From: Streptomyces beijiangensis
GTDB lineage: Bacteria; Actinomycetota; Actinomycetes; Streptomycetales; Streptomycetaceae
DNA: 64,000 nucleotides
Direction of reading: 5' to 3'
Assembly: GCF_017315755.1 (NCBI RefSeq)
Contig: NZ_JAFLRJ010000036.1
Location: 62,001 to 126,000 of the forward strand
Positions within the stretch are counted from its first letter, which is position 1. Every line of letters begins with the position of its first letter. The translations under genes were made by a program, and so were the position numbers. Under the pieces are notes generated by a model. That model did no database searches. It was not told where the DNA came from and saw only the letters and a program-made list of their open reading frames with translations. Below, piece by piece: positions 44,900 through 60,494 of this stretch.

Positions 44900-46486
44900 G
44901 TGATGAAAATTTGGAGCAGAGGCATCCGCCTTCCGCTCGCAGCCCTCTCGGGACTGCTGGCCGGGTTCGCCGCACTGGCCGTCGCCGAGCTGGTGTCCGC
45001 GGTGGTACGCCCCGAAGCGGGGCCCGTGGTGGCGGTGGGCGGTGCGGCCATCGACCGCACCCCGCCCGCGGTGAAGGACTGGGCGATCCGGCACTTCGGC
45101 ACCAACGACAAGCTCGTGCTGCAGCTCGGCATCGTTGCCGTACTCGGTCTGCTGGCGCTCGCGCTCGGTGTGCTGGCTCTGCGCCACCGCCGTATCGGGG
45201 CCGCGGGGGTCCTGCTGTTCGGAGTGGTCGGCGCCCTGGCGGCGACCAGCCGTCCGGACTCGGACAGTTCCGCGGACGCGCTGCCGTCCGTCGCCGGGGC
45301 GTTGGTCGGCGCGGTGCTGCTGTACTGGCTCATCGGCCGTCTCACCCTGCCGCCGCGCGGTGCGAGGGATCCGGCGGATACACCGGGTGAACAGGGCTGG
45401 GACCGGCGTGGATTCGTCATCGCCGCGACCGCCGCAGCCGCAGCCTCCGCCGGTGCGGGGCTCGTCGGACGGTCGCTGAACAGTTCGCGCGGCGCGGGAG
45501 CCGTCGCCTCCCGGGGAAAGGTGGTCCTGCCCGCTCCGGCATCGGCCGCGCAGCCGGTACCTGCGGGGGCTGCCCTGCATGTGCCGGGCATCAGCCCTTT
45601 CATCACGCCGAACGGCGACTTCTACCGCGTCGACACCGCCCTGGTGGTGCCCAAGGTCGATGCCATGGACTGGAAACTCACCATCCACGGCAAGGGTGTC
45701 GGCCGTCCCGTCACGGTCACCTTCCAGGACCTGCTGAACCGCCGGCTCATCGAGCGGGACATCACGCTGACGTGCGTGTCCAACGAGGTGGGCGGCCCCT
45801 ACGTCGGCAACGCCCGCTGGATCGGTGTGCGGCTGGCCGACCTCCTCAAGGAGGCGGGAGTGAAGCCTCCCTCGCGGGGCGGTCCGGCCGATCAGCTGGT
45901 GGCCCGCTCCGTGGACGGGATGACGATCGGCAGCCCGGTGGAGGACGTCATGGACGGCCGCGACGCGATGCTGGCCATCGGGATGAACGGCGAGCCGCTG
46001 CCCTTCGCACACGGCTTCCCGGTCCGGATGCTCGTCCCCGGACTGTACGGATACGTGTCCGCCTGCAAGTGGATCAAGGATCTCGAACTGACGACGTTCG
46101 ACTCCTACGACCCGTACTGGGTGAAGCGGACCTGGGCCAGGAAAGCGCCGATCAAGACCGAGTCGCGCATCGACACCCCCAAGCCCTTCGCCCGTCCCAA
46201 AGCCGGCACCGTGATGATCGCCGGGGTGGCCTGGGCCCAGCACCGGGGCATCGACAAGGTCGAGATCCAGGTCGACGACGGTCCCTGGATGCCGGCCGAT
46301 CTCGCCGCCGAGGACACCTCCGACACCTGGCGCCAGTGGTCCCGTCCCTGGAACGCCACCTCCGGCGGTCACACCCTCACGGTCCGCGCGACCGACCGCA
46401 CGGGCCAGGTCCAGACCGAGGAGCGCACCGACACCATCCCCGACGGCGCGAGCGGCCGGCACTCGGTGGTGATCACCGTCGACTGA
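44900..46486 (+). CDS. Membrane-bound molybdopterin (sulfite oxidase/YedY-type) oxidoreductase
   Basis: 528 residues; GTG 44900 and ATG 44903 are both possible starts. Four or five N-terminal helices span about 1-155, then a stretch like a second signal anchor (FVIAATAAAAASAGAGLVG). A sulfite-oxidase-type molybdopterin domain lies at about 235-415, with the Mo-coordinating Cys in ITLTCVSNEVGG and YVSACKWIKDLEL. A Mo-co dimerisation/Ig-like domain forms the C-terminus (VEIQVDDGPW). In such proteins the domain is outside the membrane and reduces protein methionine sulfoxide or other S/N-oxides. A fasciclin lipoprotein gene follows 81 bp later. Confidence 0.88.
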   Translation: MMKIWSRGIRLPLAALSGLLAGFAALAVAELVSAVVRPEAGPVVAVGGAAIDRTPPAVKDWAIRHFGTNDKLVLQLGIVAVLGLLALALGVLALRHRRIGAAGVLLFGVVGALAATSRPDSDSSADALPSVAGALVGAVLLYWLIGRLTLPPRGARDPADTPGEQGWDRRGFVIAATAAAAASAGAGLVGRSLNSSRGAGAVASRGKVVLPAPASAAQPVPAGAALHVPGISPFITPNGDFYRVDTALVVPKVDAMDWKLTIHGKGVGRPVTVTFQDLLNRRLIERDITLTCVSNEVGGPYVGNARWIGVRLADLLKEAGVKPPSRGGPADQLVARSVDGMTIGSPVEDVMDGRDAMLAIGMNGEPLPFAHGFPVRMLVPGLYGYVSACKWIKDLELTTFDSYDPYWVKRTWARKAPIKTESRIDTPKPFARPKAGTVMIAGVAWAQHRGIDKVEIQVDDGPWMPADLAAEDTSDTWRQWSRPWNATSGGHTLTVRATDRTGQVQTEERTDTIPDGASGRHSVVITVD

Positions 46487-46567: not shown

Positions 46568-47206
46568 ATGAGTGCCCCCCGTTTCCGCCGTGCCGCCCTC
46601 ATCGCCGCTGCCGCCGCGGTCCTGCCGATCGCACTGACCGCCTGTTCCAGCGACAGCAAGGACAGCACGGCGGAGTCCACGCCGACCGCGAGCAAGTCGA
46701 TGGCGTCGTCGGGTGATGCGATGAGTACGGACAAGCCGTTCGGTCCGGGGTGCGCCTCGGTCCCCAAGGACGGTGCGGGCAGCTTCGACGGCATGGCCAA
46801 GGACCCCGTCGCCACCGCCGCCTCCAACAACCCCGCCCTGTCGACCCTGGTCGCCGCGGTGAAGAAGGCCGGCCTGGTCGACACCCTCAACAACGCCCAG
46901 AACATCACCGTCTTCGCCCCGACCAACGACGCCTTCGCGAAGATCCCCAAGGCCGACCTCGACAAGGTCCTCAACGACAAGGCCCAGCTCACCAAGATCC
47001 TCACCTACCACGTCGTCGGCCAGAAGCTCACCCCCAAGCAGCTCGAGAACGGCACCTTCACCACCCTGGAGAAGAGCAGCCTCACCACCTCGGGCTCCGG
47101 CACCGCCTACAAGGTCAACGACACCTCCAACGTCGTCTGCGGCAACGTCCCCACCGCCAACGCCACCGTCTACATCGTCGACACCGTCCTCATGCCCAAG
47201 AGCTGA
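46568..47206 (+). CDS. Fasciclin-domain lipoprotein
   Basis: 212 residues. The lipoprotein signal ends with lipobox LTAC (Cys at 26), followed by a Ser/Thr/Lys-rich linker. One FAS1 domain lies at about 70-212: PALSTLVAAVKKAGLVDTLN, ITVFAPTNDAFAKIPK, TYHVVGQKLTPKQLENGTF and a C-terminal ATVYIVDTVLMPKS. It resembles the Mpt70/83-like secreted fasciclins of Actinobacteria. Extracellular, attached to the membrane; possibly adhesive or binding. In Mycobacteria these are controlled by SigK, but no sigma gene is adjacent here. CACAGGAGAATCC gives the ribosome site. Confidence 0.93.
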   Translation: MSAPRFRRAALIAAAAAVLPIALTACSSDSKDSTAESTPTASKSMASSGDAMSTDKPFGPGCASVPKDGAGSFDGMAKDPVATAASNNPALSTLVAAVKKAGLVDTLNNAQNITVFAPTNDAFAKIPKADLDKVLNDKAQLTKILTYHVVGQKLTPKQLENGTFTTLEKSSLTTSGSGTAYKVNDTSNVVCGNVPTANATVYIVDTVLMPKS

Positions 47207-47352: not shown

Positions 47353-48282
47353 ATGGACAGCGATACGAATCCGTCGCTCCGATGCCTGGTGACCGGCGCG
47401 ACCGGATACGTCGGAGGACGGCTGGTGCCCCCCTTGCTGAAGGCGGGCCACCAGGTGCGCTGCATGGTGCGTTCCCCCGAGAAGCTGCGCGACCACGAGT
47501 GGTCCGGTCAGGTCGACACCGTCCGAGGCGATGTGACCGACCCGGCGTCCGTGGCCGCCGCGCTGGACGGCATCGATGTGGCGTACTACCTGGTGCACGC
47601 GCTCGGTACGGGCGCCGACTTCGAGCAGACCGACCGCGATGCGGCCCGTGTCTTCGCGGACGCCGCCGCGACCGCCGGAGTACGGCGGATCGTCTACCTC
47701 GGCGGGCTCACCCCGACGGAGGTCCCGACCCAGGACCTCTCGCCCCATCTGCGTTCACGCGCCGAGGTCGGTGACATCTTCCTCAAGTCCCCGGTGCCTG
47801 CCACCGTGCTGCGCGCCGCCGTCATCATCGGCTCCGGCTCGGCCTCCTTCGAGATGCTGCGCTACCTCACCGAACGTCTTCCGGTCATGGTGACCCCCAG
47901 CTGGGTCAGCACCCGGATCCAGCCCATCGCCGTCCGGGACGTCCTCCGCTACCTCGTCGGCAGCGCCCTCATGCCCCAGGACGTCAACCGCACCTTCGAC
48001 ATCACAGGGCCGGACATCATGACCTACCGGGACATGATGGAGAGGTACGCGGCGGTCGCCGGCCTGCGGAAGCGGCTGATCCTTCCCGTGCCCATGCTGA
48101 GCCCGAGACTCTCCAGCCACTGGATCGGCCTCGTCACACCGGTGCCGCGGTCGATCGCCCGGCCCCTCGCCGAGTCCCTGCGTCATGAAGTGGTCGGCGA
48201 CGAACACGACATCGCGCGTTATGTGCCCGACGGGCCGGACATGCCGATCGGCTTCGACCAGTCGTTGTCGCTGGCCCTGTAG
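47353..48282 (+). CDS. SDR/NAD(P)H-binding protein, truncated by an in-frame stop
   Basis: 309 residues up to a TAG at 48280-48282. GTGGGAGG precedes the ATG. The N-terminal Rossmann motif is LVTGATGYVGGRL, then VDTVRGDVTDPASV and YYLVHALGTG, as in the NmrA-like/YbjT proteins that carry a C-terminal DUF2867 domain. In such proteins the chain runs to about 500 residues. Here it stops after SLAL, and the reading frame resumes without a shift as RVQDAQVVTHW. The TAG is a single C-to-T change from CAG. The Rossmann half could still fold. Confidence 0.8.
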   Translation: MDSDTNPSLRCLVTGATGYVGGRLVPPLLKAGHQVRCMVRSPEKLRDHEWSGQVDTVRGDVTDPASVAAALDGIDVAYYLVHALGTGADFEQTDRDAARVFADAAATAGVRRIVYLGGLTPTEVPTQDLSPHLRSRAEVGDIFLKSPVPATVLRAAVIIGSGSASFEMLRYLTERLPVMVTPSWVSTRIQPIAVRDVLRYLVGSALMPQDVNRTFDITGPDIMTYRDMMERYAAVAGLRKRLILPVPMLSPRLSSHWIGLVTPVPRSIARPLAESLRHEVVGDEHDIARYVPDGPDMPIGFDQSLSLAL

Positions 48283-48852
48283 CGGGTCCAGGACGCCCAG
48301 GTGGTGACGCACTGGTCCTCCGCCTCCGTGCCCGGCGCGCCCAGCGATCCGCTGCCCACCGACCCCGACTGGACGGGCGGCAGTCTTTACACCGACCGCA
48401 GGCAACGCGTCGTACACGCATCCCCGGAAGACCTCTGGCGGGTCGTCGAAGGCATCGGCGGCAAGAACGGCTGGTATTCCTTCCCTCTCGCCTGGGCCTT
48501 GCGCGGTTGGCTCGACCGGCTGGTCGGAGGGGTGGGCCTCGGCCGCGGCCGGCGCGACGCACTCCGGCTGCGCGTGGGGGACTCGCTGGACTTCTGGCGG
48601 GTAGAGGAGATCGTCCCCGGCCGGCTGCTCCGGTTGCGTGCGGAAATGAGGCTGCCGGGTCTGGCCTGGCTGGAGATGCGCGTGGACCAGGACGACGAGG
48701 GCGGGTCCCGGTACTCCCAGAAGGCGATCTTCCATCCGCGCGGGCTGCTCGGCCATGCCTACTGGTGGAGCGTCTCGCCCTTCCACGCCGTGGTTTTCGG
48801 GGGAATGGTACGGAACGTCGCGAAAGCCGCCGAGAAGGGGAAGGGCCGGTGA
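48283..48852 (+). pseudogene. DUF2867 C-terminal part separated by the amber codon
   Basis: 190 codons in the same frame as the preceding SDR gene, opening RVQDAQVVTHWSS and continuing into a DUF2867 domain (EDLWRVVEGIGGKNGWYSF, WALRGWLDRLVGGVGLGRGR, LDFWRVEEI). A GTG at 48301 could restart translation, but no ribosome site is near it. It is either the dead end of a broken gene, a re-initiated product, or made by stop read-through. The frame and codon use are intact to the TGA at 48850-48852, so the mutation must be recent if real. Confidence 0.75.
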
Positions 48853-59603: not shown

Positions 59604-60494
59604 TCAGGGTGTCGATTTGTTACCTGTGTTGTACGGACGAAATAGCCCTTCCTGGACCACCGAGACCAGGAGGTTCCCCGCCCGGTCGTAGATCCGGCCG
59701 CGCGCAAGGCCGCGTCCGCCCGTCGCGATCGGGGACTCCTGGTCGTACAGGAACCATTCGTCCGTACGGAACGGGCGGTGGAACCACATCGCGTGGTCCA
59801 GCGACGCCATGTCGAACCCGCGCGGGCCCCACAGCGGTTCGACGGGGATGCGGACCGCGTCCAGCAGCGTCATGTCGCTGGCGTACGTGAGCGCGCAGGT
59901 GTGCACCAGGGGGTCGTCGCCGAGATCGCCGACCGCGCGCATCCAGACCGTGCTGCGCGGTTCGGCTCCCTTGATCTCGTCGGGTGTCCAGCGCAGCCGG
60001 TCGACGTAACGGATGTCGAAGGGCTGGCGGCGGGCCATCCGTTCCAGGGCGTCGGGGAGTTCGCCCAGGTGCTCGCGGATCTCCTCGGTGACCGTCGGCA
60101 GCGACTCGGGGTCGGGGACCTCGCGGGCCGGCGGCAGCTGGTGCTCGAAGGTGCCCTCCTCCGGCTTGTGGAAAGAGGCCGTGAGGTTGAAGATCGTGCG
60201 GCCTTGCTGGACCGCGGTGACCCGACGGGTGGTGAAGGAGCGGCCGTCCCGCATCCGCTCGACCTGGTAGACGATCGGGACGCCCGGGCGGCCGGGGCGC
60301 AGGAAGTACGCGTGCAGGGAGTGGACCGGGCGGTCGCCGTCGGTCGTACGCCCGGCCGCGACCAGCGCCTGGCCCGCGACCTGGCCGCCGAAGACCCTCT
60401 GGAGGGACTCCTGGGGTGAGCGGCCGCGGAAGATGTTGACCTCGATCCGCTCCAGGTCGAGCAGGTCGACGAGTCGCTCGGCGGGGTTCGTCAT
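59604..60494 (-). CDS. tesB: Acyl-CoA thioesterase II (TesB)
   Basis: 296 residues from MTNPAERLVDLLDLERIE. Double hot-dog fold: FGGQVAGQALVAAGRT in the first half, FDMASLDHAMWFHRPFRTDE with the catalytic Asp in the second, and YDQESPIATGGRGLARG. Cleaves acyl-CoA to free acid plus CoA. AGGAG precedes the ATG. The start is 19 bp downstream of the helicase stop; the two may be co-transcribed. Confidence 0.95.
   Translation of the reverse strand: MTNPAERLVDLLDLERIEVNIFRGRSPQESLQRVFGGQVAGQALVAAGRTTDGDRPVHSLHAYFLRPGRPGVPIVYQVERMRDGRSFTTRRVTAVQQGRTIFNLTASFHKPEEGTFEHQLPPAREVPDPESLPTVTEEIREHLGELPDALERMARRQPFDIRYVDRLRWTPDEIKGAEPRSTVWMRAVGDLGDDPLVHTCALTYASDMTLLDAVRIPVEPLWGPRGFDMASLDHAMWFHRPFRTDEWFLYDQESPIATGGRGLARGRIYDRAGNLLVSVVQEGLFRPYNTGNKSTP

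Follow-up and report, generated by a model that had tools for sequence, protein, structure and literature searches.

An in-frame TAG in a Streptomyces beijiangensis SDR-DUF2867 gene, most likely a young nonsense pseudogene

A gene for a putative SDR-type oxidoreductase in the draft genome of Streptomyces beijiangensis is cut by a single in-frame TAG, with a recognizable protein domain on either side. Is the gene broken, is the stop an error in the sequence, or are both parts made and useful? We addressed this question in a stretch of 64,000 nucleotides (the window), which corresponds to bases 62001-126000 of contig C1083 (172,285 bases) in an assembly of 1769 contigs that is 94.64% complete.

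The interrupted frame and its uninterrupted relatives

On the plus strand, a single reading frame extends from an ATG at 47353 to a TGA at 48850-48852 and contains one in-frame TAG, at 48280-48282. The frame (47353-48852) encodes 309 residues, the TAG (residue 310), and a further 189 residues up to the TGA. The residues flanking the stop are SLAL*RVQDAQ, and the base next to the TAG is C. The in-frame TAG is truly present in the given sequence, and translation bears out the preliminary description, in which the frame continues across position 48280 without a shift.

Pfam searches revealed that the domain content also spans the TAG, as had been proposed. The first part (47353-48282) carries an SDR/NmrA-like NAD(P)-binding domain (NAD_binding_10, 1.4e-22; NmrA, 3.9e-16), whose relatives of known structure, by sequence, include NDUFA9 of complex I, a monooxygenase (5f5l), and the ketoreductase SimC7. 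The second part (48283-48852) holds the rest of a helix-like stretch, a conserved connector (TRWS...PSDPLPTDPDW), a whole DUF2867 domain (PF11066, positions 1-142 of 142, 4.5e-45), and the TGA. Thus, the gene has both the N-terminal SDR/NmrA domain and the complete downstream, in-frame DUF2867 of the fused SDR-DUF2867 family, while the TAG deprives it of that family's uninterrupted chain. The same domain order is found in the YbjT-like SDR oxidoreductases with a C-terminal DUF2867; the compared relatives of this kind are unbroken, whereas the window frame breaks at residue 310.

The idea that both halves are intact holds in that each is open and retains its domain. It fails in that the stop lies within a conserved stretch, FDxALxLALRRVREAQVxTRWS, so the first product would lack the end of that stretch. 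A structure model predicts a helix at residues 301-314, at low confidence (pLDDT about 58 for 301-310 and about 43 for 311-320; mean pLDDT 59.4 and pTM 0.47 overall), which is suggestive of a stop that cuts a helix. The best 50 PDB matches listed for the model were SDR-type proteins and complex I entries, and they did not inform the second half.

To establish the form of the parent gene, we gathered 158 loci and compared them all; removal of 16 duplicates left 142 distinct relatives. None of the 142 has an internal stop, and every one has a residue opposite the TAG. Since no distinct relative is interrupted, the parent gene was one chain, as anticipated for homologues of about 500 residues, and the frame across the TAG is not a chance pairing of frames. 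When 199 genomes of the genus were searched, the sole stop-bearing place among the matches listed was the window's own. Mean identity to 109 homologues was 78% before the stop and 79% after it. The genome contains no second full-length copy, as the other 16 of its 17 matches reach at most 49.9 bits.

Searches with DUF2867 matched 134 of 197 genomes of the class. Among the matches listed with E values of 7.9e-33 or better, all 113 other places lie in frames of at least 486 amino acids, compared to 189 for the window gene, and we found no orthologues that are naturally two genes, the case that the preliminary description had named as contrary to its reading. Among lower-scoring places listed, short frames of 178-293 amino acids are common, alongside some long ones, and DUF2867 therefore seems able to stand alone in other proteins. 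The window gene resembles these proteins in that its DUF2867 occupies a separate short frame, but its domain scores among the long-frame places (1.4e-44 in the class-genome search), while theirs, among the matches listed, score 1.4e-32 or weaker.

What the TAG replaced, and constraint on either side

In the 142 relatives, the column of the TAG holds Arg in 72, Gln in 61, Lys in 4, Ala in 2, Glu in 2, and Ser in 1, and its commonest codon is CAG (48 relatives). The suggested one-base change from CAG to TAG is plausible given the Gln and CAG counts, but Arg is the more frequent residue and the three nearest relatives do not carry CAG. These relatives (L033, L035, and L067), with which the window gene groups at a local support of 0.99, have CGA, CGC, and CGC, respectively, each of which differs from TAG at all three bases. 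We infer that an ancestral step via CAG would be the likeliest path.

With residue 310 treated as CAG, the window gene has 118 one-base routes to a stop, of which 71 give TAG (5783 of 8644 in the contig's genes). Residues 300-341 hold 11 of these 118 routes, or 8 of 41 if only transitions are counted, and a stop near the domain border therefore needs no special cause. A TAG is what one would expect, and neither the type of stop nor its position is remarkable.

Compared to the three nearest relatives, dN/dS was 0.185-0.240 before the stop and 0.184-0.225 after it. Ratios near 0.2 in both halves imply either a recent event or an error; no long decay appears in them. The gene is divergent overall: its terminal branch is 0.164 (median 0.059), in each half its profile score is low by about two standard deviations, and its mean dN is exceeded by just 4 (first half) and 5 (second half) of 142 others, where each sequence was compared to 25 sampled partners. 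Given the first half, the profile score of the second was only 1.1 standard deviations lower than predicted.

We also counted departures from conserved columns, using as a test set 73 other sequences fetched without bias to either half. At columns conserved in at least 97% of sequences, the window gene has four departures after the stop (R320H, A341T, R397G, and R457K), a count that 1 of the 73 others reaches, and three before it, which 8 of the 73 reach. At a 95% threshold, there were three departures in the first half (reached by 19 of 73) and four in the second (reached by 3 of 73). The clearest is R320H, at a position that is Arg in all 142 relatives; R457K is not unique, as the near relative L067 also has K457. 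An earlier test had given seven departures in the C-terminal half, compared to at most four in 109 others, and was set aside, since the N-terminal half had served as query for most of those sequences. The four departures after the stop lean weakly toward a real, young lesion, and the remaining tests of relaxed constraint are neutral.

A young pseudogene and the competing explanations

The gene is most likely a young nonsense pseudogene, a reading that we hold with some confidence. A single-chain SDR-DUF2867 oxidoreductase gene would recently have gained an amber codon at residue 310, a break set against 142 intact relatives. Translation from the ATG at 47353 to the TAG would yield a fragment of 309 residues that lacks the end of the helix-like stretch, the connector, and DUF2867; the fragment would probably be inactive, and the remainder of the frame would hardly be translated. 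This account takes the base to be real and ATG 47353 to be the start of translation, and it further infers an inactive fragment and a recent lesion. As in bacterial amber pseudogenes, there is one in-frame stop, past constraint in both flanks, and one affected genome among those compared. No feature that we saw separates the window gene from them, and the case is ordinary.

The strongest competitor is a sequencing or assembly error, under which the gene is whole in the living strain, with a sense codon at this place; we consider it a real possibility, though clearly the less probable one. The assembly is fragmented and incomplete, the lesion is one codon within an otherwise constrained gene, and another part of the assembly holds an apparently frameshifted MFS gene. 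However, the window sits on a contig of 172 kb, and a working protein would need to tolerate the unusual residues downstream of the stop, R320H among them.

To gauge how often frames are interrupted elsewhere, we inspected 290 listed matches to MFS_1 and ABC_tran, for which 140 of 200 and 150 of 271 initial candidates had been scored. Stop flags appeared on four, of which just one was an in-frame stop inside a domain, a TAG in an ABC_tran domain, which also speaks against an error-ridden assembly; the others were the frameshifted MFS gene and two natural gene ends. In the first (L190, C628:8759-9274, minus strand), the TAG follows the Walker-A region, and a second ABC_tran domain lies downstream in the same frame. 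The MFS transporter gene (L191, C971:5372-6554, minus strand) appears as two matched pieces in different frames. We rejected the TGA flags in the MFS genes on C800 and C1212, which are the genes' own ends, and that on C971, which is the end of the frameshifted piece. An SDR homologue on C1046 was likewise rejected as a second case of an in-frame TAG, as its TAG lies just ahead of the gene's start.

Scans by codon score gave no clear excess of interrupted frames over two relatives. A strict scan returned 3 candidates in 475.7 kb here and 1 and 1 per 400 kb in the relatives, while a looser scan returned 9 in 458.7 kb here and 8 and 2 in the relatives. Several candidates were ordinary neighbouring genes by eye, and of two from the looser scan that were sent to Pfam, one matched a transposase and one had no match. 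The TAG studied here escaped both scans, which are therefore insensitive. Synteny with two genomes (G094 and G187) did not serve as a survey of broken genes, as the SDR gene was the sole match within 400 kb of either one. Contig C1083 itself has a Mutator transposase gene with an in-frame TAG at 60393 (L182:393; PF00872, 4e-25, 81 residues read through), about 1.6 kb before the window. At 45439 of the same contig (L181:5439), a coding-like frame runs through a TAG; it is transposase-like by eye, with 81 residues that have no Pfam match. Ordinary pseudogenes would account for these interruptions elsewhere in the genome, and so would a degree of assembly error.

Less probable than an error, and in our view unlikely, is that both parts are made and useful, either as full-length protein through low-level read-through or as two associating chains through a restart at a GTG. 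Each part is open and under the constraint seen in its relatives, short-frame DUF2867 proteins are known among the lower-scoring places listed, and the closest candidate restart codon, a GTG at 48301-48303 (Val 317), lies 18 nt past the TAG with AGGA upstream. Nevertheless, its ribosome site is weak. Using what we take to be the rRNA tail sequence, the duplex upstream of this GTG was -4.2 kcal/mol, which ranks 12th (tied) among 34 in-frame internal ATG and GTG codons, compared to -11.4 kcal/mol upstream of the ATG at 47353. Moreover, a study of six gene pairs in E. coli and Haloferax (PMC10666635) reports that termination-reinitiation is almost lost when the gap is about 20 nt. The stop would also cut the conserved, helix-like stretch of the model, and it is shared by none of the 142 relatives. 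With no two-gene relatives among the matches listed and a weak restart site, the gene does not resemble a naturally split pair. It is very improbable that this is the first step of a gene fission, in which a shortened SDR chain and a separate DUF2867 protein restarted at GTG 48301 assemble into a working enzyme.

Read-through fares no better. We found 61 tRNA genes, of which 60 were typed by ARAGORN and the last has anticodon TCC, from its sequence and an Rfam alignment. None of the 61 has a CTA anticodon, although a tRNA could have been missed in a genome that is 94.64% complete. The RF1 gene is present and has no stops within it. These observations disfavour amber suppression, and programmed read-through finds neither a TAG-reading tRNA among the 61 nor a stop conserved among the 142 relatives. 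Thus, the suggestion of read-through or re-initiation in the preliminary description gained no positive support.

That this organism decodes TAG as a residue in certain genes is barely conceivable. The three in-frame stops with a Pfam match across them (window gene, ABC_tran, and Mutator transposase) are all TAG; the unverified scan candidates comprised 3 TAG, 3 TGA, and 3 TAA. Of the one-base routes to a nonsense codon, however, roughly two in three give TAG anyway. In addition, TAG terminates 17 of the contig's 90 long coding-like frames (the first part of the window gene may be among the 17), and the tRNA set and RF1 argue against recoding.

Neighbourhood and meaning of the interrupted gene

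A fasciclin-domain gene (46568-47206, plus strand; Pfam Fasciclin, 2.1e-34) lies 146 bp upstream of the SDR-DUF2867 frame. By eye, a fasciclin gene also directly precedes SDR-DUF2867 in one other genome (G039) and lies about 3 kb upstream in two more (G004 and G025). In the flanks (up to 6 kb) of 80 named relatives, we detected a fasciclin match in one (L068, on the other strand) and no match to the CtaG, PFK, GatD, or MurT genes. Because the wider neighbourhood is unmatched in these 80 relatives, the SDR-DUF2867 gene may vary in its location among Streptomyces genomes. Elsewhere in this genome lie a second copy of the fasciclin gene, 93% identical (C1349:3630-4241), and a fragment of 34 residues that is 94% identical to it (C1018), which suggest that the fasciclin gene was recently duplicated.

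What the interrupted gene means depends on whether the stop is real. If it is an error, the case is a matter for annotation. If both parts were made, and only then, the gene would be of greater note. If the stop is real, as in the young pseudogene that we favour, the gene would be another young nonsense pseudogene. In 63 of the 197 class genomes searched, DUF2867 had no match, and a real stop would suggest that a conserved, little-studied enzyme can be lost in this genus.
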